Source: Geoglobus acetivorans (GTDB taxonomy: Archaea > Halobacteriota > Archaeoglobi > Archaeoglobales > Archaeoglobaceae). Taken from it: a stretch of 64,000 nucleotides of DNA. Under the pieces are notes generated by a model. It saw only the letters and a list, made by a program, of their open reading frames with translations, ran no database searches and was not told the DNA's origin. The position numbers and the translations under genes are program-made. Where the stretch lies: the NCBI RefSeq assembly GCF_000789255.1, contig NZ_CP009552.1:1364001-1428000 (forward strand), in the 5' to 3' direction. Shown one piece after another: positions 10,322-60,406 of the stretch. Each line of letters opens with the position of its first letter. The stretch's first letter is position 1.

Positions 10322-11474
10322 ACAGTTCCTCCAGCAAGTTTTCAACGCCGAGAGCTATTCCATCCACCTCGATGTCCTTGCCCTTCGCACCGTCACCGAC
10401 GACATACACGTTCTCAAATGGCGTTCTGCATCCCGTGTCCTTCCCCGCCATAACCCTGTTCACGGGCCAGTCTCCACGATAGCTCTGGACGGCAATGATC
10501 TCATACTCGTATCCTTTAAGAATTTCCCTGAGGTCCCTCAATCCTTCAGCAATCTCCTCAATTCTGCCATCCCTCAGGGGCTGATGTGCCTGAAGCATGT
10601 GCTTTTCTCCAAGATTATCGTCAGCATTGGTTACCTCATTCATGCCAGAGATCTTCCTTCCCGGAGTGAGCAAAACACCACTGTGCCCTATGAAGGGTTC
10701 CTTCAGGGCGATGGTGTATTTAACACCTCTGCTTTCAGGCGGGGTGCTGATTTCCTTTCCGGCAAGCTTCATGGTGAGCCTGTGGCCGATGTTGGAGATC
10801 AGAACGTCAAACTCCCTCTCATCCTTCCCGTAAATCTTAACCGACCCTTCCGGCCTGATAGCACTGATTTCACATCTAAGGTTGATTTTTCCACCGTTGG
10901 ATTCGATGATTTCCACAAGCTCATCAATCACAGCCCTGCATCCGCCCACCGGTACCCCCGGACCCCTGTATTTCATCGTCTGCTCCACTATCGGCATGAG
11001 CTCGCTGAATCGCATCTGGTCAGGAAAAACACTCAGACTCCAGCCGAGGAACGCTTCAAGAGTTTTTGATGCTTTTTCTGATAACGATTTTGAGAATTCG
11101 TCCAGCTTTCTGTCTCTTCCGAGCTTCAGAAGCAATGTTTCAAGATTCAGCTTTAACCCGTCTGAAAAAGGGAAGCTTTTCCTTGTAACCTTCTCAAACT
11201 CCCCATCCCACAGAATTTCAGCTTCAGGATTTGAATTCACAATTTCAACATCTGCACCTGCCTTCCTGAGAAGTCTGGCCAGTGGCCCCCTGCTCCCGTG
11301 AGGTATCATGTGCAGCGCTCCCGTGCTTACCTCATAACCCCTGTATAGGATGGAGGTGAACCTTCCACCGGGAAACGGAAGTTTTTCGAAAATTTCGACT
11401 TCTTCTCCCTTCGAAGCCAGAATTGCTCCAGTTAGCAACCCCCCAAGCCCTGCACCGATTATCCCGACTCTCAT
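10314..11474 (-). CDS. Phytoene-dehydrogenase-like FAD-dependent oxidoreductase
   Basis: The 386-residue protein opens with the FAD-binding GIIGAGLGGLLTGAILASKG and has FPGGRFTS, then a second flavin contact at the end (NVYVVGDGAKGKDIEVDGI). This is the amine-oxidase/phytoene desaturase superfamily that oxidises or saturates isoprenoid chains and other lipids; the substrate is unknown. It overlaps the short ferredoxin as ATGA and ccmA by 8 bases, so the ferredoxin is the obvious electron partner. A geranylgeranyl-lipid or quinone reductase role is possible but not shown by the sequence. Confidence 0.8.
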   Translation of the reverse strand: MRVGIIGAGLGGLLTGAILASKGEEVEIFEKLPFPGGRFTSILYRGYEVSTGALHMIPHGSRGPLARLLRKAGADVEIVNSNPEAEILWDGEFEKVTRKSFPFSDGLKLNLETLLLKLGRDRKLDEFSKSLSEKASKTLEAFLGWSLSVFPDQMRFSELMPIVEQTMKYRGPGVPVGGCRAVIDELVEIIESNGGKINLRCEISAIRPEGSVKIYGKDEREFDVLISNIGHRLTMKLAGKEISTPPESRGVKYTIALKEPFIGHSGVLLTPGRKISGMNEVTNADDNLGEKHMLQAHQPLRDGRIEEIAEGLRDLREILKGYEYEIIAVQSYRGDWPVNRVMAGKDTGCRTPFENVYVVGDGAKGKDIEVDGIALGVENLLEELYD

Positions 11475-11641
11475 TCAACCACCAGTGCCGAAAGCGGACA
11501 GTAATGTATGCATCTTCTGCAGAGGGTGCATTTCTCGTGATCTATCTCCGCCTTCCCCAGAACATCTATCGCATCAAACCTGCACGAAAGCATGCAGAAG
11601 GCACATCCGACACATCTTTCCGTAACAATTACTCTCTCCAC
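11471..11641 (-). CDS. Short 2x[4Fe-4S] ferredoxin
   Basis: A GTG at 11641 opens a 56-residue frame with two cluster motifs: CVGCAFCMLSC and CTLCRRCIHYCP. The first motif has Cys-x2-Cys-x2-Cys-x3-Cys without the usual proline, the second has it. Its TGA overlaps the ATG of the FAD oxidoreductase (11471-11474), so the two are coupled and it probably passes electrons to or from that enzyme. An A/T-rich element near 11662-11674 lies about 27 bases upstream and fits a leaderless GTG start. Confidence 0.85.
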   Translation of the reverse strand: MERVIVTERCVGCAFCMLSCRFDAIDVLGKAEIDHEKCTLCRRCIHYCPLSALVVE

Positions 11642-11684
11642 AACAGTAAATGAAAGGCCGGAATTAAAAAATTTCTTTCCAAGA

Positions 11685-12770
11685 TTATGCCTTCAGAACC
11701 CCAAGCTCTGTGAGTCTTTCCGGCAGATACACATCCGTCACGTAATCGAGACCGTATTTTGCGAGAGCCTGCTGTTCTGATTTCTTTTTAAGATCGAGCT
11801 GAAGCTTGACCTCAGTTTTCCAGAAGTCAGTATCAAACCTCGGATCAGTCAGTATGGCGTTCAGTGCCTTTATGTCCTGCTCGGTTAGCTTGTCAGATGG
11901 AAGCTTGTACTTCACGATATCGGTTGGCCTTATCCCCACGAACATTGCCGAAGGGGTGGCGAGATACTCACTCAGATGTGCAGATTTTATGCTCCCGTAG
12001 GCAACACTGGCGTAAATCCTGTAACTCCAGGGATCACCATCTGTAAAAACCACGACCGGAAGATTTAGTTCGGTGTTAAGCCTTTTAAGCAGTCTTCTGG
12101 TGCTTCTTGCTGGCTGTCCCTTGAGGTGGACTATTATTGCATCAAATTTCTCGTCAAAGCCATTCTCAACAAGCCTGTCTCTCATACCACCTGTTTCTAT
12201 GGCTATGACGAATTTTGCATCGTGATCAACGAATTCAAGCTTATCCACATTAACAGGAATCTGGTATCCTCCCTCACCAACGTCCTCCTGACAGTGAATT
12301 TCTCTCACACCCCTCCTCGTCTCTTCCCTGATTCTCACCGGGCCTATGACTGTTGCACCATCCTCTTCAGGCCTTATGTGGAAATGCTCTCTCTGAAAAG
12401 CCGTTAGAATTTCGAGGTCTTCAATCAGTCTGTCGCTGTCAGACTGGTCGTCAAACTTCGCCAGGCCCCAGTTCTCTGAAATGTAGTAAAGCTCTCTGAG
12501 TGTGGAGGACTTGTTGATTCTCAGCTGATCCTTGATGAAACCCATAACATAAGCCATCCTCAGCATCATGTATGCTCCTTTGAGTGTTTTAGCAGTCCTT
12601 GTAGAGGTTCGGTCTCCGTAAACCCACACCTCACTCTCTTCATTGAATTCTATGTTGTACTTCGTCCTCGTGGAGATCTTTATCTCAGGAATTTCTCCAT
12701 TCTTGAGCTGGTTGTATATAGACTCAGCTATGGAGAGCAGAGACTCAAGTGCTTTCTTCTCCATATTCAT
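11685..12770 (-). CDS. top6A: DNA topoisomerase VI subunit A
   Basis: Subunit A (Spo11 family) makes the double-strand cut of the type IIB enzyme. The 361 residues show the catalytic tyrosine region [15 protein letters not shown] (near residue 98) and the TOPRIM metal residues in VIAIETGG and TDGDPW. It follows top6B on the same strand with a 26-base overlap, the standard pairing. An ATG at 12770 or two codons later could serve as start. Length agrees with archaeal homologues. Confidence 0.97.
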
Positions 12771-14532
12771 AGTTCACAACCTCTGCACCGGCTACAAGTT
12801 CCTTCTCAATCCCCTCAACCAGGGGCCTGCTGTTCACGTGTCTCCCACTGAATTCATACTCTATTCTTTCAGTCTCCCCGGGATTTATTTCAACGTCCCA
12901 CTTTGCAGTTCTGTTACCATTTATCCCTCCGTCACACATCTCATAAATCCTCAACCTTTTTCTGGAATTTGAAAAATTGGATATCTCAACCACAGCTTTA
13001 TTTCCGTTCACAGCCCTTGAAACGTACACCTTGCCCATAATCCTGGCAATGACCTTTTCGGGATCCACCATCTCTTTTTCCACAACCTCGCTTATCTTTT
13101 CTGCAAGCAAAGGCAGAATTCTCATCAGCTCCTCTTCTTTCTTCTTCTTTTTCTGTATCGAAACTTTTCTGTCCAGGTATTCCTTCAGCTTCCTTCCGCA
13201 CTCCTGAAGGGCAAGCTTTGCCTCGTCTATAATCTCAGGCACAGTGGCAACAGCTTCCTTCGATTCAGACACATAAGGAACGTTTGTCGAAGCGACGTGA
13301 ACAAGAATCACCATGGGAGCTACCGGAAGCTCGCTTTTAGACTGCTGAAGGCCGTAATTCTTCCAGTTCACACTCACAATCGCCTGGGTTAAGGCACATC
13401 CGCTTTGCTGGTAAAGCAGGGGGATCTTGTTTGCAAATCTCAGCACAGACACTTTGTCCTCCTTCAGACTGCCTCCATAAGCTATTCCTGCCTCAACGAG
13501 GAAAGGATGGCCGGAATGAACCTTCGGCTTTCTCGTTACGGCATACACAAATTCGGGAGAGTACTCCTGCATGAGACTTTTCATTATGAGCTGGCTTCCG
13601 ATCGGAGAGAGGCAGTCTATGGGGGGCGGAAGGAGATCAGTCTCCCTGAAAGCATTCACCAGCCTTTCGGCATCTTCTCTCGTGAGCTGAGATGGCGTAA
13701 GATCTGGACTCAGGCCCGCTTTCTGGAGAATTTCTTCGCTTATCTTGTCGCCAACCCTGACAAACTCGCTTTTCAGGAAGTTTTTGAGGTCCCTTGCCTT
13801 TGTGGTTTTCAGCATTGCCATCAGCGTACCAATCTCAATGCCGTGAGGGTGGGGTTTGATTTCCTTTGGTGGCTCAGGTGGCACATCGCTGACCCTATCA
13901 AATTCGAAAACCTCACCATCTGGAGAGATGAAGGTTATCTTGGCATGGGGGTTCACGACGGACGTTTCCTTGAGGTATTCCAGAACGCTCTGCTTCCTCT
14001 CCCTCACGTAACTGCCCCTGACTTCGAGCTCAATTCTCGTTCCGTGCGGGCTGTACCACTCAACGTCCTCTTCTCTCAGAATTTCGGGTTCGTTCTTTTT
14101 CGTGTCAATCATAATTTCAAATCTGTACGCCTTTCCACCCTCTACCTTGGACGTTACAACAGCAGGTTTTCCAGTAGTAATCTGGGCGTACAGCACAGCC
14201 GAAGAGATTCCAATTCCCTGCTGTCCTCTGCTCTGCTTGATTGCATGAAATCTCGAACCGTAGAGAAGTTTCCCAAAAACCCTCGGAACGTGTTCTCTGT
14301 CGATTCCAGGACCATTGTCCTCAACAACTATCCTGAACGTGTTTTCCGAGACTTTCGTAATCTTAACAAGAATGTCGGGGAGAATTCCTGCCTCTTCACA
14401 GGCATCGAGACTGTTGTCCACCGCTTCCCTCACACACGTTATCAGGGCTTTGGATGGATTGGAGTAACCGAGAATGTGTTTATTCTTCTCAAAGAATTCT
14501 GCAATGCTTATTTCCTTATGTTCCGAGCTCAT
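12745..14532 (-). CDS. top6B: DNA topoisomerase VI subunit B
   Basis: Subunit B is the ATPase of topoisomerase VI. The GHKL motifs are seen as [39 protein letters not shown] and the [11 protein letters not shown] lid, followed by the helix-two-turn-helix and transducer regions. The transducer carries a lysine in the sequence [16 protein letters not shown]. At 595 residues it includes the extra C-terminal immunoglobulin-like domain that some archaea have (about residues 490-590). It follows the small RAM protein by one base and overlaps top6A. Confidence 0.97.
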
Positions 14533-14533
14533 A

Positions 14534-14764
14534 TCATATTTCTGCGCCTATTACCGTGCTCGTTTTTATAACACCCTCTATCTCCCTTATGGTATCGACG
14601 GTTTTGTTCAGCTCTGAAAGGCTTGATGCCTCGATAATCACAACGAAATCGAACTCTCCAAACACGTGATAAACATCCCTGACATTTTTCATTGCTTTGA
14701 GTTCAGAATAGACCGGTTTTTCCTTGCCGGGCGAGACGCTGACCATTGTAACTCCGATTACCAT
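14534..14764 (-). CDS. Stand-alone Lrp/AsnC ligand-binding (RAM) domain protein
   Basis: The protein is about 76 residues from the ATG at 14764 and consists only of the alpha-beta RAM domain of Lrp-type regulators (VIGVTMVSVSPGKEK, then DVYHVFGEFDFVVIIEA). No DNA-binding helix-turn-helix is present. A TATA sequence TTATATATTTT near 14784-14795 lies 24 bases before this ATG, so a longer frame to 14806 is unlikely. It ends one base before the top6B start and so leads the topoisomerase VI operon. Such stand-alone domains bind amino acids and can pair with full-length Lrp proteins; a role in the topoisomerase operon is unknown. Confidence 0.82.
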   Translation of the reverse strand: MVIGVTMVSVSPGKEKPVYSELKAMKNVRDVYHVFGEFDFVVIIEASSLSELNKTVDTIREIEGVIKTSTVIGAEI

Positions 14765-14886
14765 GTTTTCTTCTTTAACTGGAAAATATATAACGTTTTT
14801 CCTCAAAAAAGAGCCTTGAGCCAGGATTCATGCCTGCAGACCTGCCGGGGACATGAGCAGAAAGAAAAGATATACCAGAGCCCAAA

Positions 14887-15279
14887 TCAATCATCAAGTC
14901 CAAATTCCCCCAGATATGCATGCACGTTGATCAAAAAATCGTTGAGCTTCTCAAATGGAACGATTACAGAATGGTGAAAATAGACCAGATCGTCAATGAG
15001 AGGAACAACCACGGGAACCACCCTCCTTCCAAGAATTCTTTCAAGCCTTTTGCATCTAATCGCATGTTTTTCGGCTTCCCTTTTAATTGCAGAAAGCCTG
15101 TACCACTTTTCAGTATATCTCTTCGCATCTATCCCGAGAACAAGATCAAATCGCTCTGCAACAACATCAATCTCCGCTCTGCCAGATTCATCTCTAAAAA
15201 CATACCTGAACCTCGTCTCGAACCCGTGTTCCTCGAGTATGTTCCTGACGATTTCCTCAAATTCCTGCCAGGAATTCAT
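14887..15279 (-). CDS. PD-(D/E)XK nuclease-like protein
   Basis: The 130 residues begin with WQEFEEIVRNILEEHGFETRF and contain GRAEIDVVAE followed by LVLGIDAKRY, giving the Asp and D-x-Lys of a restriction-endonuclease fold (PD-(D/E)XK). Similar archaeal proteins are annotated as restriction-endonuclease-like or as cousins of Holliday-junction resolvase Hjc; the exact substrate is unknown. It overlaps the DUF1786 gene by 23 bases on the same strand and is probably cotranscribed. No methyltransferase is beside it, which argues against a classical restriction system. Confidence 0.72.
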   Translation of the reverse strand: MNSWQEFEEIVRNILEEHGFETRFRYVFRDESGRAEIDVVAERFDLVLGIDAKRYTEKWYRLSAIKREAEKHAIRCKRLERILGRRVVPVVVPLIDDLVYFHHSVIVPFEKLNDFLINVHAYLGEFGLDD

Positions 15280-16285
15280 GGTTCTTCAGCAGATTGACCA
15301 TGCCGAGGTTTCCAACGACCATGACATCTCCTGCAGGATTTGCCTCTCTGAAATCTGCGATGTGGGCATTGGGGCCTGTTTTTACGAAATCCTTCACATC
15401 CACTACTGCATCAATCCACGCCCCATGCCCTCCCTGTTCATACACGGTCTCGTTATCCAGCTCTCCACGAATAAATTTCCCGGCAAGCTCTTCAACATCC
15501 ATATTCCTCACAATGGACGTGTGATGCTCCATGAGGGAGTAGATTCTGCCATCTCTGTCAACCACCGCAAAAACCGTGTGTCCATTGCCAAAATTCATCA
15601 CCAGTGCCGGGAATTCCACAGCATCAAGCATTGCCCCCCCTATCGCCGCAAACACAGTATCGATGACATACACCTCAGATTCTCCACCAAGAAAGTCCAA
15701 TATTGCGGTAACGGCTGACTTCATCCTGTTGTAATGCTCAGGGACTTCATCGGCAGGATAAAGGAAACTCTCCAAGTATGGGGAATTGTTCAATACCTTC
15801 TCGAACACCCTGAACCTGAATTTTCTGTTGCTCTCAGTAGGAGAAAAGCCGTGATCCTGCACAGCAACAACAAATTTATCGGGCATGCCAATGCCAAATG
15901 ACTCCAGCATTGACGAATATGCAGCCATGTCAACATCAGTCATAAACACTTCACGGGCGTTCTCAACCTTCTCATCCACAATACGAATTCCAAGCTCCTC
16001 AACCCTCTGAAGGTTATCGTTTATCGTGAGAGCAGGCTTCTCAAAAGCATAAACGCTAACTCTCTCCAGCGCATCCCTGACTGCCCTTGAACTCGGACCT
16101 CCTCCCATCGTGTAGCCCGTGAGCAATATATCCTCTCCTTCAGCAGCCAGTTTGCGTACCCTTTCCGCCACAATTATCGTTGGGGAAGGCATTACAGCCT
16201 TGGGACAGTTTCGAACATTCTCTCCCTCAATATACAGCAAGAAGTCCTGAGTCCCCGTACCAACATCCAGCGTGAAAACCTTCAC
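15257..16285 (-). CDS. DUF1786 family protein
   Basis: This 342-residue protein starts MKVFTLDVGTGTQDFLLY, an actin/hexokinase-like phosphate-binding start, and continues LLTGYTMGGGPSSRAV and VMNFGNGHTVFAVVDRDGR, features that match the archaeal and bacterial DUF1786 family (often labelled putative pyruvate-formate-lyase activating protein without proof). No radical-SAM cysteine motif is present. ATP binding is an inference from the glycine pattern. It overlaps the nuclease-like gene by 23 bases and lies 32 bases after the radical-SAM gene. Confidence 0.75.
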   Translation of the reverse strand: MKVFTLDVGTGTQDFLLYIEGENVRNCPKAVMPSPTIIVAERVRKLAAEGEDILLTGYTMGGGPSSRAVRDALERVSVYAFEKPALTINDNLQRVEELGIRIVDEKVENAREVFMTDVDMAAYSSMLESFGIGMPDKFVVAVQDHGFSPTESNRKFRFRVFEKVLNNSPYLESFLYPADEVPEHYNRMKSAVTAILDFLGGESEVYVIDTVFAAIGGAMLDAVEFPALVMNFGNGHTVFAVVDRDGRIYSLMEHHTSIVRNMDVEELAGKFIRGELDNETVYEQGGHGAWIDAVVDVKDFVKTGPNAHIADFREANPAGDVMVVGNLGMVNLLKNHEFLAGI

Positions 16286-49239: not shown

Positions 49240-49605
49240 ATGGGTTTGATGGACAGGCTGTTCAGGAGGGGTGAGAACGCAGCAGGCAGGCCCATCAGTG
49301 TCGACCATTCCAGCTTTGACGAGATCCTGAAGTCCAGCAGATATGCAGTCGTGGACTTCTGGGGAAAAAACTGCCCACCATGCGAGGCCATGGAGCCGAT
49401 CCTGAAAAAGCTCGCCAGAGAGTACGAGGGAGAGGTCATCTTCCTGAAGGTAAATGCAGCTTCCAGTCAGGAGATATCCCGGAGGTTCAGAGTGAAGAGC
49501 GTCCCCGCGTTCCTGTTCTTCGAAAATGGAAGGCTGAAGGGCAGAAGGGTCGGAGCAATGTCGTACGAAGCCTTCAAAAAGTGGGTTGAGAGCATGATGT
49601 CCTGA
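49240..49605 (+). CDS. Thioredoxin-like protein with CPPC active site
   Basis: The 121-residue protein has a thioredoxin fold with FWGKNCPPCEAMEPI, so the active site is CPPC instead of CGPC, and the usual Trp before it is Asn. SVPAFLFFENGRLKGRRVGA supplies the cis-Pro. The first 20 residues are an extra basic N-terminal part (MGLMDRLFRRGEN) without a clear signal. It follows nrdJ on the same strand and may serve as its reductant. Two other thioredoxins lie at 56 kb. Confidence 0.88.
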   Translation: MGLMDRLFRRGENAAGRPISVDHSSFDEILKSSRYAVVDFWGKNCPPCEAMEPILKKLAREYEGEVIFLKVNAASSQEISRRFRVKSVPAFLFFENGRLKGRRVGAMSYEAFKKWVESMMS

Positions 49606-55314: not shown

Positions 55315-55995
55315 GTGAGCATTCTGGATGAACTTGAGAGGATTGAGAAAAAGCTGAAAAGAGGGGAAGACGTCAGGAGAGAATTCTGGTTGCTCGCAGG
55401 CAGAATAAAGAGGTCAAACGTTCGGGATGACGACATCCTATCAAGAGTAGCAAGGATCAGAGACGAGATGTTCGACAGAAAAGTTCTCTTCGGATTCAGA
55501 GCAGGTTTTTCCGCATTCTCATTCCTGTTTATTCTATCCAACACCCTGCTTTACCTGATTGCCTTTAAACCCATGCCTGACAATCTTAAACTCGTCAGCA
55601 TTGCCGCTGTGGAACTCGCAGCCCTGTACACCTCATTTCTTGTGGGCAGGTGTCTTTCGGCAACTCTGACGGGGATAGAGGTGGATGGCTTTTACAGATA
55701 CACCCCTCTCGAGTTTGGAGTCAAGATCAACTACCTGAGCTACCTGAAAGCATCCCAGAGAGACAGAGTGCTGCTCTATTCAGGAGCGATCGTTCTTGAA
55801 CACATCACAATGCTTGCCCACACGCTGTTTCTTCTCTCCATCAAATCGAGCTGCTGGATCATTCCGGCATTCTTTCTGATCGCAAATCTGCCATTCTCAT
55901 ACCTGATGCACAGAGCTATGAGAACGGGAGAGCTTCACAGACTGATCAGAGAGTACAGAATTTTAAGAGAGGTGAGAGCAAAAGCCAATAAATAA
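55315..55995 (+). CDS. Membrane protein of unknown function with N-terminal coiled part
   Basis: The 226-residue protein starts with GTG at 55315. Residues 1-52 are charged helix (ILDELERIEKKLKRGED), then follow about five hydrophobic helices, among them FLFILSNTLLYLIAF and LFLLSIKSSCWIIPAFFLIANL. I recognise no family. A soluble front plus several helices suits a sensor or transporter subunit. It lies 84 bases before the redox operon on the same strand but has its own stop and gap. Confidence 0.62.
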   Translation: MSILDELERIEKKLKRGEDVRREFWLLAGRIKRSNVRDDDILSRVARIRDEMFDRKVLFGFRAGFSAFSFLFILSNTLLYLIAFKPMPDNLKLVSIAAVELAALYTSFLVGRCLSATLTGIEVDGFYRYTPLEFGVKINYLSYLKASQRDRVLLYSGAIVLEHITMLAHTLFLLSIKSSCWIIPAFFLIANLPFSYLMHRAMRTGELHRLIREYRILREVRAKANK

Positions 55996-56078
55996 TCATT
56001 TGGTTTTTACCGTTTTTGTCAAAACCACTCTCAGCTTAAATACATGTTCTGACAAAGTAGGTACTGAGGTGATGAAGG

Positions 56079-56339
56079 ATGATCTCAATAAAGCTCCTCA
56101 CGTCCCCAACCTGCCCGTACTGTCCGAGGGCGAGGGAAGTCGTAAAGAAACTGACTGAGGAAGACGGGAACGTTATCGCTCTGGAGCTGAGTGTTACCAC
56201 GGACGAAGGTCTGAAAGAGGCTCTGAAATTCGGAATATCCGGTGTTCCCGCGATAATTATAAACGACGCTGACGTGATACTGGGTGTCCCTAAGCTCTCA
56301 GACCTGAAAAGGCTTGTTGAAAAATACAGGTACAATTGA
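56079..56339 (+). CDS. Glutaredoxin/thioredoxin-like protein (CPYC)
   Basis: The 86-residue thioredoxin-fold protein has the active site TCPYCPRAREVV and the cis-Pro in GVPAIIIND. CPYC is glutaredoxin-like, but archaea of this type lack glutathione, so the partner is likely another thiol system. It opens an operon of six genes: this, thioredoxin, radical SAM, HTH, ferredoxin, unknown. A GAGGTGATGAAGG site precedes the ATG. Confidence 0.9.
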   Translation: MISIKLLTSPTCPYCPRAREVVKKLTEEDGNVIALELSVTTDEGLKEALKFGISGVPAIIINDADVILGVPKLSDLKRLVEKYRYN

Positions 56340-56357
56340 GATGGAGGTGAAAAAAGA

Positions 56358-56681
56358 ATGAAGGCACTCACAGAAAAGGATTTTGATGAGGAAATAAACA
56401 AAGATAAGCTCGTTGTAGTGGATTTCTGGGCAGAGTGGTGCATGCCGTGCAGAATGCTCACTCCGGTACTGGAAAAGCTGGAGAAGGAGTACGATGGAGT
56501 TGAGTTCGCGAAACTGAATACCGACGAATGCCCCAACGTCGCAATGAGATTTGGGATATTCAGCATCCCCACGGTGATGATGTTTTACAGAGGAGAAGTG
56601 GTAAACAGCTTTGTCGGAGCCATGCCAGAGAGCGTTGTCAGAAGAGAAGTGGAAAAGGCGCTTGAAAAGATACAGGCATGA
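56358..56681 (+). CDS. Thioredoxin (CMPC)
   Basis: The 107 residues are a normal thioredoxin with FWAEWCMPCRMLTPVL; the active site CMPC differs from the usual CGPC, which changes its redox potential. The rest is standard, with SIPTVMMFYRGEVV for cis-Pro. It follows the glutaredoxin-like gene by 18 bases and overlaps the radical-SAM gene start by four bases (ATGA), so all are translated together. Confidence 0.92.
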   Translation: MKALTEKDFDEEINKDKLVVVDFWAEWCMPCRMLTPVLEKLEKEYDGVEFAKLNTDECPNVAMRFGIFSIPTVMMFYRGEVVNSFVGAMPESVVRREVEKALEKIQA

Positions 56682-57346
56682 GAGTCATAAATTACGGGGA
56701 TTGCAGGGTCGATGTAGGCCTTTGCAATCTCCGGTGCCCCTACTGCGTTCATCTGGAACATGAGTTAAGAGACGTCAGCCCGGATGAGATAGCTTCATCG
56801 CTCAAAGGCTGTGAAAGTGTGTACATTGGCGGAGCAGAACCGACAGTCCATGCAGACCTTGCAAAACTGCTCGAAAAACTGAAAGAGAACGGTTCATACA
56901 TTACACTGAAAACAAACGGATATCTGCCGTCAAAGATTGAAGAAGTCCTGCATTATGTTGACAGGTTCGTATTCGAGATAAAGGGAGATTTTAACGACAT
57001 TGACACCGTGGCATTCATGTCTGGTTTGAGCAGAGAAAGAGCGAGAAAATACATCAGTAATCTGGAAAAGAGTCTGGAAATTGCAAGAAAGGGTGGAAAA
57101 ACCATAAGACTCTGGTTCAGAATAATTCCCGGATATGTGGATGAAAAACGCTTCACCAGAATGCTTGAAAAAGTTGGCATCGTGGACGAAATCCTCCTCT
57201 ACCAGTTCCTTTCGAGACCTGACTGGGATAAACCCGTAGAGGGTCTTGAAAAGCCCGATTACAAGTTTGTGAGAAAGCTGGGTGCAATCGCAAAACAGTA
57301 TGCAGGCAGGGTCATAATCATCGGAGACAGGCGGGAATCGATATGA
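56678..57346 (+). CDS. Radical-SAM protein of redox operon
   Basis: The 222-residue protein has the cluster motif CNLRCPYCVH near residues 16-25 and SVYIGGAEPTVHADLAK, in place of the usual GGEP. It resembles activases of the pyruvate-formate-lyase type and organic-radical activators, but no glycyl-radical enzyme is nearby. Its start overlaps the thioredoxin stop and its stop overlaps the HTH start (57343-57346), both as ATGA. The substrate is unknown. Confidence 0.82.
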   Translation: MRVINYGDCRVDVGLCNLRCPYCVHLEHELRDVSPDEIASSLKGCESVYIGGAEPTVHADLAKLLEKLKENGSYITLKTNGYLPSKIEEVLHYVDRFVFEIKGDFNDIDTVAFMSGLSRERARKYISNLEKSLEIARKGGKTIRLWFRIIPGYVDEKRFTRMLEKVGIVDEILLYQFLSRPDWDKPVEGLEKPDYKFVRKLGAIAKQYAGRVIIIGDRRESI

Positions 57347-57708
57347 GAACCATAAAGGATTCAATTACAAGCTTGAACTGCGAAACAATTCTGGAGTGCT
57401 TTTACGGGATCAACGACAGTGATGCACAGATATACCGTCTGCTAATAAAAAGAAATCTCAAAATAGAAGAAATAAGCCAGATCCTCGGGAGAGGGGAAAA
57501 TTCCGTCTACAAATCTCTGCAGAAACTTCTGATTGCCGGACTCGTTGTTAGAGAGAAAAAAGTGCTCCCGGGAGGGGGCTACTACTACACATACAGATCA
57601 GTATCTCCAGGCAAGTTAGCTGAAGAGATGCGCAGGATTATGAAAGAATGGTGCGAAAAAGTTGCATTTACGATAAATGAGTTTGAGGAAAAGTTCGGAG
57701 GTGATTGA
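57343..57708 (+). CDS. Winged-helix transcriptional regulator (TrmB/MarR-like)
   Basis: The 121 residues hold one winged helix: YRLLIKRNLKIEEISQILGRGENSVYKSLQKLLIAGLVVREKK, close to the TrmB/MarR type. The C-terminal helix (AEEMRRIMKEWCEKVAF) likely makes the dimer. It sits in the middle of the redox operon, coupled to the radical-SAM gene before and the ferredoxin after it (stop TGA directly followed by ATG), so it may be an autoregulator. One Cys in the last helix could sense redox state. Confidence 0.85.
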   Translation: MRTIKDSITSLNCETILECFYGINDSDAQIYRLLIKRNLKIEEISQILGRGENSVYKSLQKLLIAGLVVREKKVLPGGGYYYTYRSVSPGKLAEEMRRIMKEWCEKVAFTINEFEEKFGGD

Positions 57709-57882
57709 ATGCCACCTGCAGTTCTTGGATGTCAGGGTTGCGGAAGGTGTTCACAGGTGTGTCCAACGGACGCCCTGATAAGACAGGGCGGCAAGGTCGT
57801 GAGAATCGATGCGGACAGATGTATGGAGTGCTACAAGTGTGTTGAGGTATGTCCGTACGGTGCACTGATAAAGATGGACTGA
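57709..57882 (+). CDS. 2x[4Fe-4S] ferredoxin
   Basis: The 57-residue ferredoxin has CQGCGRCSQVCP and CMECYKCVEVCP, both full Cx2Cx2Cx3CP motifs. It starts in the base after the HTH stop. In the operon it would supply electrons to the radical-SAM protein or thioredoxins. Its end overlaps the unknown gene by 34 bases. Confidence 0.92.
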   Translation: MPPAVLGCQGCGRCSQVCPTDALIRQGGKVVRIDADRCMECYKCVEVCPYGALIKMD

Positions 57883-58412
57883 ATGACGAGACGGCACGGA
57901 AGGGTTTCACGCTTCTCGAAAAATATGCTGAAAGCGGAATCATACCTGAAAAAGAACTTGACCACGAACTGATTCTGTTCTTTTATTCCGAAAAACTTGC
58001 CTTTCCCGTTTCCGCTCGCAAAGACTCTCTGTCATGGGGTATGAGAGAAATATCTCTGCAGGACCTCGAAATCCCGTACATCATAAGAGAGCTTTTGAAA
58101 AACAACTGTGACTGGAAGAAGGCAGTGAGAGAATATTTCAGGAGGATCGGTGAAAGTCATCCTGAAGATTTTGTGGAGATTGTTGAAGAACTCATCAAAA
58201 GAAGGAGAAAGTTTTTGATTTCAGGGACAGAGATCGTGGATCTCTGCAAAAAATATAACAGAGATGGGGGAGTCGTGATAGCCGAACTAAAAGGCGCCGG
58301 TGTGATAAGCCCACATTCAGGCTGTGGCAGAGCAGTTTCCAGGCTGGAAAGGATCCATGGTTCTCCACTGTACGAAATAAACAGATTTCTGATAAAGCTC
58401 GTAGAAGGCTAA
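57849..58412 (+). CDS. Unknown protein closing the redox operon
   Basis: The 187-residue protein is mostly helical and hydrophilic; its middle (ESHPEDFVEIVEELIKRRR) and end (GTEIVDLCKKYNRDGGVVIAELKGAGVIS) look like two winged-helix-type units without a recognised family. The only start in frame is ATG 57849, inside the ferredoxin gene, giving a 34-base overlap. It has four cysteines, two of them in CKKY and GCG. It shares the operon and strand with the radical-SAM protein. Confidence 0.68.
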   Translation: MSVRCTDKDGLNDETARKGFTLLEKYAESGIIPEKELDHELILFFYSEKLAFPVSARKDSLSWGMREISLQDLEIPYIIRELLKNNCDWKKAVREYFRRIGESHPEDFVEIVEELIKRRRKFLISGTEIVDLCKKYNRDGGVVIAELKGAGVISPHSGCGRAVSRLERIHGSPLYEINRFLIKLVEG

Positions 58413-58807: not shown

Positions 58808-59250
58808 CTGAGTCCCTCCAGTGCAAGATTCACAGCTTCTTCAGGGCTTTCAGCAAGAACCAGCCCATCAAGCTTTACAGCAGGCCTGTAAGCCACCACT
58901 CTTTTTCCCTCCTTGAGGGCAATCGCCATCTCGGAGATTGTGCCATAACTGCCCCCAACGGCTATGAGAGCATCGCTCGAATGGACAATGACCATGTTCC
59001 TCGCATGACCCATATCGGTTGCAATGATGTAATCACAGTATCTGTTTGCAAGCTTTTTGTCTTTAAATGGGATTATGCCAATGACCGTGCCACCTCTGCT
59101 CTTTGCACCTCTGCTAACAGCCTCCATCACTCCCCCAAGACCGCCATTTATCACCACCGCACCGTTTTCGGCAAGAAGCTGTCCTATCCTGTAAGCAGTG
59201 TCACAGATATCCCCATAACACCTCCCGCTTCCTATTATTCCTATCTGCAT
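58804..59250 (-). CDS. TIGR00725/LOG-like (SLOG) Rossmann protein
   Basis: The 148-residue protein starts MQIGIIGSGRCYGD and shows GGLGGVMEAVSRGAKSRGGTVIGI and VAVGGSYGTISEMAIALKEGK, the PGGxGTxxE-like motif of lysine-decarboxylase-fold proteins. It may bind a nucleotide-linked ligand; LOG enzymes release cytokinins from AMP, but the archaeal group is uncharacterised. The start is the ATG after AGAGGTGGTATC. It is divergent from the acetyl-CoA-synthase-like gene and shares the ATATTTAAC box near 59287-59296. Confidence 0.85.
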   Translation of the reverse strand: MQIGIIGSGRCYGDICDTAYRIGQLLAENGAVVINGGLGGVMEAVSRGAKSRGGTVIGIIPFKDKKLANRYCDYIIATDMGHARNMVIVHSSDALIAVGGSYGTISEMAIALKEGKRVVAYRPAVKLDGLVLAESPEEAVNLALEGLR

Positions 59251-59317
59251 GATACCACCTCTGAGAGAGGTTGAAAAACCCGGACAGATATTTAACGGCC
59301 CGAAACAATATAAAAAT

Positions 59318-60406
59318 ATGCTTGAAAGGGTCATCGATCCAGAGAAGATTAACGTTCAGGCCGATTGCATCGAGATGAGTGAACTGTACGCTGGAGAGAG
59401 AGTGAAGGAGGGCAGAATTGTAAAGGGATTTGAGCTTGTGGAGGTAGGCAGGGGTGACGGGATCGAGATCGTTGGAGATCGCAGAGACATAATGGGTATC
59501 CACGTTCTGGTTTCAGGTGTAACTGATGACTCTGCCCAGGCAATTGAGAGCATTTTTTCCGAAGTTATAAACAGGATGAGAGGGGTAGAATACAGATTCA
59601 GGAAGGAAAACGTCAGAATAATCGTATCTGAAGAAGTCGAAGAAAAATTTTCGGCTGAATGCGTTGGCAGAATCATATACGACGCAGTAAAATCGATTCC
59701 AGCCGTCAAATCGGTGAAAGTCAGAATGATATGCGATGAAAACGAGTTTATGAAAATCATTGAAAAAAGCCGGAGAGTCCATGAAAATCGAGAAAAGAAG
59801 TCAGAAAGTTTAAAGGACAGTGACGTGGGCAGGTTTTATGGCTGTGTGTCCTGTCAGGTTTACCTTCCCCATCACGTATGCACAATCACTCCTGACAGAC
59901 CCTCGCCGTGCGGAACTATCTACAGCGAGGCAAAAGCAGCAGAGGAGCTCAAGCTCGTACACTACTATTTCCCGGTTGACAGAGGCAGAACCATCGACGA
60001 ACACAAAGGAGAATACGAAGGTGTGAACAGAGCTGTTGAGGAAATGAGTGAGGGAGCAATAACAAAAGTAAAACTGCATTCAGCTCTCGATTCCCCTCCA
60101 CCCACCGGAAATTATGCCGAAGCGATAGTATTTTACATTCCGGAGGAGGACGGTTTCGGAATTGTTGACAGAGGCTACCGAAAAAAGACACCCACAGGAC
60201 TCACGTTCGACAGTATGGAAAAAATCATCGTCGGACAGCAGGTTGAGGGGTTCGTTGGAGTGAGCTTCGCATACATGCGATCCAGGAGCTTCCTCAAAGG
60301 CGATGGAGGGTGGAACAGGGTGAAATGGGTCTCGCCGAATGTCTATGACTTCATAATGGAGTTCCTGCCATACGAGCTGCTGAAAAGTATAAAAACCATG
60401 GGCTAA
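59318..60406 (+). CDS. Acetyl-CoA synthase beta (CdhC)-like protein lacking the Ni-binding CGC
   Basis: The 362-residue protein is clearly related to CdhC/ACS, which builds acetyl-CoA from CO, methyl and CoA at the A-cluster. YAGERVKEGRIVKGFELVEV and GRFYGCVSCQVYLPHHVC match the family. The four cluster cysteines Cys176, 179, 188 and 198 have the exact spacing Cx2Cx8Cx9C known for the [4Fe-4S] half of the A-cluster. The CGC motif that binds the two nickels is absent; the site reads PTGNYAE (262-268), just before the conserved AIVFYIPE. The [4Fe-4S] half may form, but the nickel site cannot be built in the known way. ATG 59318 lies 26 bases after a GATATTTAAC box. Confidence 0.85.
   Translation: MLERVIDPEKINVQADCIEMSELYAGERVKEGRIVKGFELVEVGRGDGIEIVGDRRDIMGIHVLVSGVTDDSAQAIESIFSEVINRMRGVEYRFRKENVRIIVSEEVEEKFSAECVGRIIYDAVKSIPAVKSVKVRMICDENEFMKIIEKSRRVHENREKKSESLKDSDVGRFYGCVSCQVYLPHHVCTITPDRPSPCGTIYSEAKAAEELKLVHYYFPVDRGRTIDEHKGEYEGVNRAVEEMSEGAITKVKLHSALDSPPPTGNYAEAIVFYIPEEDGFGIVDRGYRKKTPTGLTFDSMEKIIVGQQVEGFVGVSFAYMRSRSFLKGDGGWNRVKWVSPNVYDFIMEFLPYELLKSIKTMG

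Follow-up and report, generated by a model that had tools for sequence, protein, structure and literature searches.

A conserved redoxin operon of Geoglobus acetivorans that probably encodes its own OxsR-type thiol-redox regulator

Results

The operon and its promoter

The stretch of DNA analyzed here, called the window throughout, comprises 64,000 nucleotides of Geoglobus acetivorans, a thermophilic archaeon that reduces iron (contig NZ_CP009552.1, positions 1,364,001 to 1,428,000), and our subject is a compact set of six genes within it, together with the conserved palindrome in front of them. We argue below that the six genes are an autoregulated, OxsR-type thiol-redox stress operon that encodes its own reductants, a reading to which we give a probability of roughly 0.7. 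The promoter elements and genes, with the short names used for the latter, are the following (lengths in amino acids, aa).

56003..56033, no strand assigned: conserved imperfect palindrome, predicted operator of HTH; core TTTTTACCGTTTTTGTCAAAACC at 56004-56026
56036..56043, plus strand: TATA-like element TTAAATAC, read by eye, just downstream of the palindrome
56079..56339, plus strand: GRX, glutaredoxin-like/MJ0307-type thioredoxin with CPYC, 86 aa; TIGR00411 at 93.4 bits (cutoff 92.75)
56358..56681, plus strand: TRX, thioredoxin with CMPC, 107 aa; TIGR01068 at 119 bits
56678..57346, plus strand: rSAM, short radical-SAM protein with CNLRCPYC, optional member, 222 aa; PF04055 at 48 bits
57343..57708, plus strand: HTH, single-domain TrmB-family (OxsR/Lrs14-type) regulator with invariant C13 and C19, 121 aa; PF01978
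57709..57882, plus strand: FDX, 2x[4Fe-4S] ferredoxin, 57 aa; PF00037
57849..58412, plus strand: U187, uncharacterised protein with a winged-helix-like C-terminal half, 187 aa; overlaps FDX by 34 bases

Re-reading the sequence bore out what a preliminary description of the locus had said of its layout: all six open reading frames (ORFs) lie on the plus strand, and their joints are an 18-base gap, two ATGA overlaps, an abutting TGA/ATG and a 34-base overlap, so that four of the five overlap or abut. The long overlap between FDX and U187 is upheld, as U187 has no other in-frame ATG, GTG or TTG ahead of its conserved domain; residues 1-9 of its AlphaFold model have a predicted local distance difference test score (pLDDT) below 50. 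The same description had called the active sites of the two redoxins unusual, which they are not: CPYC is the textbook glutaredoxin active site and occurs in 23/23 members of its cluster, and CMPC in 32/33 of its own. A further thioredoxin-like gene lies outside the operon at 49240-49605 (plus strand), with the active site CPPC (WGKNCPPCE).

Conservation of the cassette

Relatives were compared in a set of 57 Archaeoglobales genomes from 15 genera and a set of 392 genomes of the phylum, and gene neighbourhoods in 33 fetched loci plus the window (34 rows), with U187 carried by 31 of these loci. Among the handles used below, we take G000 to be Geoglobus acetivorans, G001 Archaeoglobus fulgidus, G014 A. 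sulfaticallidus, G020 A. veneficus, G023 Ferroglobus placidus, G026 G. ahangari, and family f5 Methanosarcinaceae.

By the preliminary description's own criterion, genes scattered in relatives would have counted against the operon; what the neighbourhoods of the 31 Archaeoglobales loci show is a conserved set. Namely, U187 is present in 30 of the 57 genomes and in 8 of the 15 genera, and it is adjoined by TRX at 30/31 loci (the remaining one is a contig start) and by HTH at 29/31 (28 by ORF calling, and L096 by tblastn), with FDX next to it at 29/31 and GRX accompanying it at 22/31 (21 by ORF calling, and L079 by tblastn). The radical-SAM gene is found at 7/31. Since gene order is shared in up to 8 genera at U187 identities of 41-89%, with differing flanking genes, the arrangement reflects more than chance. 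As to those flanks, a gene that, from its sequence, we take to encode a DRG-type GTPase stands at 21/31 loci in place of the upstream neighbour seen in Geoglobus; the latter (55315-55995, plus strand) encodes a 226-aa family-less protein, probably a membrane protein, and it is in Geoglobus only that it stands directly upstream of the operon.

Judged by sequence, the core of the cassette is TRX-HTH-FDX-U187, usually with GRX, and rSAM is an optional insert, because the core stands without it at 24 of the 31 U187 loci. One genome of family f2 (G055) has the cassette as GRX-TRX-rSAM-HTH-FDX, without U187 and with rSAM between TRX and HTH. At this locus (L082, G055:C14, about 10850-15596) the cassette adjoins cytochrome c maturation genes, which from their sequences are presumably CcmH/CcmF-like.

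The regulator and its cysteines

HTH matches PF01978 at 47.2 bits against 25.6 and, at 121 aa, has no second domain and hence no sugar-binding C-terminal domain. It is related to the Sta1 family NF053606 (68.6 bits, E 4e-19), although it falls below the curated NCBI cutoff of 80 and is thus not a member by that standard. The closest solved structure is 3r0a (MM_1094; E 8e-16), followed by AbfR2. Both C13 and C19 are found in 33/33 HTH copies, counting cassettes and TRX-HTH pairs; in two paralogues only the second of these cysteines is kept, C13 being absent. No gene accompanies HTH more constantly than TRX.

HTH C19 aligns with C17 of MM_1094, a protein with intersubunit C6-C17 disulfides, and the MM_1094 cysteine in turn aligns with C24 of OxsR (HVO_2970), the Haloferax volcanii regulator of the TrmB family arCOG02242, in which C24 is needed both for function and for an intersubunit disulfide (PMC9426492). 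The same study gives C15/C21 for the Haloferax paralogue HVO_1360 (PMC9426492), and the spacing of C13 and C19 here, six apart, is identical. By alignment, then, HTH is an OxsR-type protein whose conserved N-terminal C19 is the equivalent of OxsR C24, and its cysteines may sense redox or sulfur state.

The palindrome

A palindrome stands ahead of the cassette in nearly every genus; in A. fulgidus (G001) it spans 29 bases, with 26/29 symmetric positions. Where the window has TTAAATAC, relatives have cTTTATATA, and promoters read side by side share a conserved block, TTTTTACCGnTTTTGTCAAAACCGGTAAAA, immediately 5' of the TATA box. In the window, the palindrome pattern has one zero-mismatch match, with 0 expected in shuffles, and the operon palindrome scores 38.9 on a position-specific scoring matrix (PSSM), the next best independent match reaching 8.6. 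What is more, allowing up to 2 mismatches, the pattern matches the whole source genome nowhere but at the operon.

In all 34 rows, the region from -200 to +30 of the first cassette gene was searched for its best site, and as many as 60 random windows from each locus served as a control. Upstream of the first cassette gene, 28/34 rows have a site with at most 3 mismatches (a descriptive count), and the random windows never gave fewer than 4. The six remaining rows are L098 (5 mismatches), L099 (4), L100 (4), L079 (9), L072 (a contig start) and L083 (rSAM alone). The score of L079 is due to its GRX not having been called, and the genome scan places a 1-mismatch site at G005:C12:16272. L098 and L099 are the cassette loci without HTH by tblastn; their palindromes are decayed and are among the three weakest at loci with a proper 5' end. 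In addition, five loci not used for the pattern (in G040, G041, G042, G044 and G020) turned up in the genome scan with the palindrome before a bare TRX-HTH pair, without U187, and because of these pairs we conclude that the palindrome tracks HTH rather than U187. The claim that the operon has its own regulator is thereby strongly supported, HTH being at 29/31 loci and the palindrome following it; HTH would bind the palindrome beside the B recognition element (BRE) and TATA box.

Other sites in the genomes

The genome scan with the palindrome pattern gave 62 matches, against 35 for a reversed control pattern, and 32 of the 62 are, by our reading of the neighbourhoods, cassettes or TRX-HTH pairs. 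Among the other matches, the palindrome lies ahead of a DsrE-TusA-flavoprotein operon in G014, G049, G052 and G054 (genera g3 and g13; PSSM 23.8 to 33.3) and ahead of one ferredoxin gene in both G001 and G023. It also precedes thioredoxin reductase in G014 (PSSM 31.6) and, more weakly, in G027 (24.1). When 50 thioredoxin reductase loci were scanned, these two scored well, a few others reached 14 and the rest less; thioredoxin reductase as a general member of the regulon was consequently rejected, most loci being without a site. A further site in G001 has a cytochrome c gene on one side and an HdrA-like gene on the other; the cytochrome c/HdrA/ferredoxin sites of this genome are near 1104488 and 1107242. 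The cytochrome c gene may be AF1237, which is reported to be upregulated on CO without electron acceptor (PMC4543118).

U187

The preliminary description had listed the 187-residue protein as of unknown type and had proposed a profile search; run here, this search found no Pfam or NCBIfam family. By sequence, nothing convincing was found for it in the PDB. Its AlphaFold model has a pLDDT of 89.3; Foldseek gave no match at E <=0.001 (best E 0.21), and a VIA structural comparison gave a best Z of 7.7 and none of at least 8, the weak matches in residues 76-187 being mostly winged-helix domains. Going by this model, U187 is probably a second winged-helix protein.

A GCG motif is present in 30/31 cassette copies and absent from eight distant relatives (L124-L131). 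In bacteria and other archaea, distant relatives are encoded near genes for DUF1684, CooC-like ATPase, DUF1638, DUF2284 or ferredoxin, and U187-like proteins outside Archaeoglobales (L160, L161, L165, L130) are repeatedly found beside a CooC-like ATPase gene. A DUF1684 protein is also given among the strong OxsR targets in the OxsR study (PMC9426492), which makes for a faint independent link. As a separate observation, the class III ribonucleotide reductase NrdD passes its cutoff only in genera g4, g5, g11 and g12, all without U187, and this mutual exclusion across genera may reflect phylogeny and common ancestry only.

The radical-SAM protein and the acetyl-CoA-synthase-like neighbour

rSAM is a short enzyme of the NrdG/PflA-like kind, and strong orthologues of it occur in 10 of the 57 genomes of the order and 47 of the 392 of the phylum. 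It shares the short radical-SAM fold and CX3CX2C with NrdG2 and the pyruvate formate-lyase (PFL)-activating enzymes, but differs in scoring 62 bits against NrdG2 (TIGR02495), below the family cutoff of 131, in being without an NrdD partner, and in coexisting with a true NrdG2 in methanogens. The proximity of nrdD in Syntrophoarchaeum first suggested that rSAM might be NrdG, an identity that was rejected, those genomes having a separate NrdG2.

The protein encoded at 59249-60406 (plus strand) resembles acetyl-CoA synthase (ACS/CdhC) and retains the four cysteines that align with the region of the Fe-S cluster, yet it is without the CGC nickel-ligand motif, having PPTGNYAE opposite HTSCGCFE; the copy in G025 is likewise. 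Because this motif is lost, the neighbour probably does not function as an acetyl-CoA synthase.

Discussion

We propose that HTH is a dimeric, single winged-helix TrmB switch protein whose C19, the OxsR C24 equivalent, and C13 would alter its state upon exposure to oxidants or reactive sulfur. By binding the 29-bp palindrome, which adjoins the BRE/TATA box, HTH would set the transcription of its own operon. TRX and GRX, presumably transcribed with it, would mend protein thiols that have been oxidised or persulfidated and would reset HTH. FDX may supply electrons to the set, U187 may work with HTH as a second winged-helix protein, and rSAM would be an addition in Geoglobus, Ferroglobus and a few relatives. 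Gene order, the conservation and uniqueness of the palindrome, cysteine conservation and homology, all read from the DNA, form the basis of this proposal. Of the preliminary interpretation, the part concerning the regulator stands, and what had been suggested to be a maturation or modification system, possibly linked to the ACS-like protein, becomes a self-regulated thiol-redox operon with an optional rSAM.

That said, several observations weigh against our proposal. The palindrome of the window is less symmetric than its A. fulgidus counterpart, with a best 29-base symmetry of 16/29 versus 26/29, and the pattern with which sites were counted was composed from the cassette promoters themselves, so that the count of rows describes these promoters. 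One locus, L100, has HTH and still shows a 4-mismatch site. In the scan, the 30 matches other than cassettes and TRX-HTH pairs do not exceed the 35 of the reversed control and are in total at chance level, for which reason a wider regulon rests on the repeated gene families and not on totals. Within 2 mismatches, the source genome has no second site, and the palindrome matrix gives no score at its thioredoxin reductase locus. Finally, the roles of FDX and rSAM are not accounted for by the model.

How do other explanations fare? If the genes were a protein maturation or modification system, an FDX-powered rSAM would modify a substrate, for which the nearby ACS-like protein is one possibility, and the redoxins would serve as its thiol partners. 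The strong rSAM orthologues across Archaeoglobales, Methanosarcinaceae and Syntrophoarchaeum, the translational coupling of rSAM in the window and its place between TRX and HTH in the f2 genome, where U187 is missing, are all in keeping with this idea, which we nevertheless consider unlikely. Namely, the rest of the cassette is intact at the 24 U187 loci without rSAM, FDX is retained where rSAM is absent, and the methanogen rSAM lies apart from TRX and HTH, so that a function built on rSAM finds no support as the cassette's core function. The suggested tie to the ACS-like gene fails as well, since that gene is near the cassette at 5/31 loci, all of genus g1 (Geoglobus), and lies beyond two opposite-strand genes. 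It is far less probable still, and largely refuted, that the cassette is a remnant of, or stand-in for, a class III ribonucleotide reductase, with rSAM as an NrdG-type activase and the redoxins as NrdH-like reductants. NrdG2 is indeed the best NCBIfam match of rSAM, a PFL-activating enzyme is its best PDB match, and the Syntrophoarchaeum orthologue is divergent from nrdH-nrdD; against this, besides the NrdG2 score already given, NrdD passes its cutoff in 0/10 rSAM-bearing Archaeoglobales genomes, and 4/4 NrdD genomes tested (G067, G232, G127, G078) have a separate NrdG2 above the cutoff, which the rSAM orthologue does not reach. PFL-type glycyl-radical enzymes, for their part, occur in 4/10 rSAM-bearing genomes, and the one in G000 has an rSAM match beside it.

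One could also argue that we are dealing with a housekeeping redoxin cluster next to an unrelated regulator, the palindrome being bound by another factor or acting as an element of promoter strength. Binding of the palindrome by HTH is a prediction, and the palindrome abuts the TATA box, so that core-promoter constraint could contribute to its conservation. In our judgment such a scenario is quite improbable: a general promoter feature would not be essentially confined to one copy per genome, as the palindrome is, and the palindrome persists where TRX-HTH stand alone and has decayed at loci without the HTH gene.

The closest precedent for a self-regulated thiol-redox operon is OxsR itself. Like HTH, it measures about 120 aa and is a TrmB protein with a single winged helix and an N-terminal cysteine; thioredoxins, glutaredoxins and thioredoxin reductase are among its strong targets, and its semi-palindromic site lies 5' of the BRE/TATA at activated promoters (PMC9426492). 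The two differ in that OxsR has a single cysteine where HTH has two invariant ones, six apart; in that OxsR reads a CG-rich motif within a large network, in contrast to the AT-rich 29-bp palindrome and nearly single-site regulon seen here; and in that reductants in the same operon are a feature of the present cassette (PMC9426492). Two further systems are analogues from another family. SurR of Thermococcales is a sulfur-responsive winged-helix thiol switch that is reset by a thioredoxin-fold protein, the protein disulfide oxidoreductase, but it belongs to the ArsR family, uses a CXXC switch and reads a different DNA site; the redox-sensitive MsvR of Methanosarcina acts on its own promoter and is reactivated by the thioredoxin system, but it is likewise of the ArsR family, with several cysteines, and not TrmB-type (both as reviewed in PMC7278568). 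Among open-licence papers on Archaeoglobus, Geoglobus, OxsR and DsrE/TusA, we found no title or abstract describing the cassette or the palindrome.

A more far-reaching version, which we put forward as a doubtful though possible extension, would be a thiol/persulfide-sensing regulon across the order Archaeoglobales. Its two-cysteine OxsR-type regulator, sharing an operon with the reductants that serve it, would recognize a single 29-bp palindrome, and its control would extend, in several lineages, to thioredoxin reductase and a DsrE-TusA-flavoprotein sulfur relay. In that case, U187 would be a second DNA-binding partner, and the switch would receive from rSAM a modification of a new kind, related to thiols or clusters.

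The sharply defined DNA site and the two cysteines make the OxsR-type model directly testable, and the analysis defines two unnamed families, U187 and the short radical-SAM protein, with a clear genomic context. Archaeal thiol-switch regulators comprise three groups so far, SurR, MsvR and OxsR. If our proposal is true, an OxsR-type switch is found in strict anaerobes that reduce sulfate and iron, in one operon with the redoxins that would reset it, and OxsR-type sensing would extend from oxidant-exposed haloarchaea to anaerobes, where it would be tied to sulfur handling.

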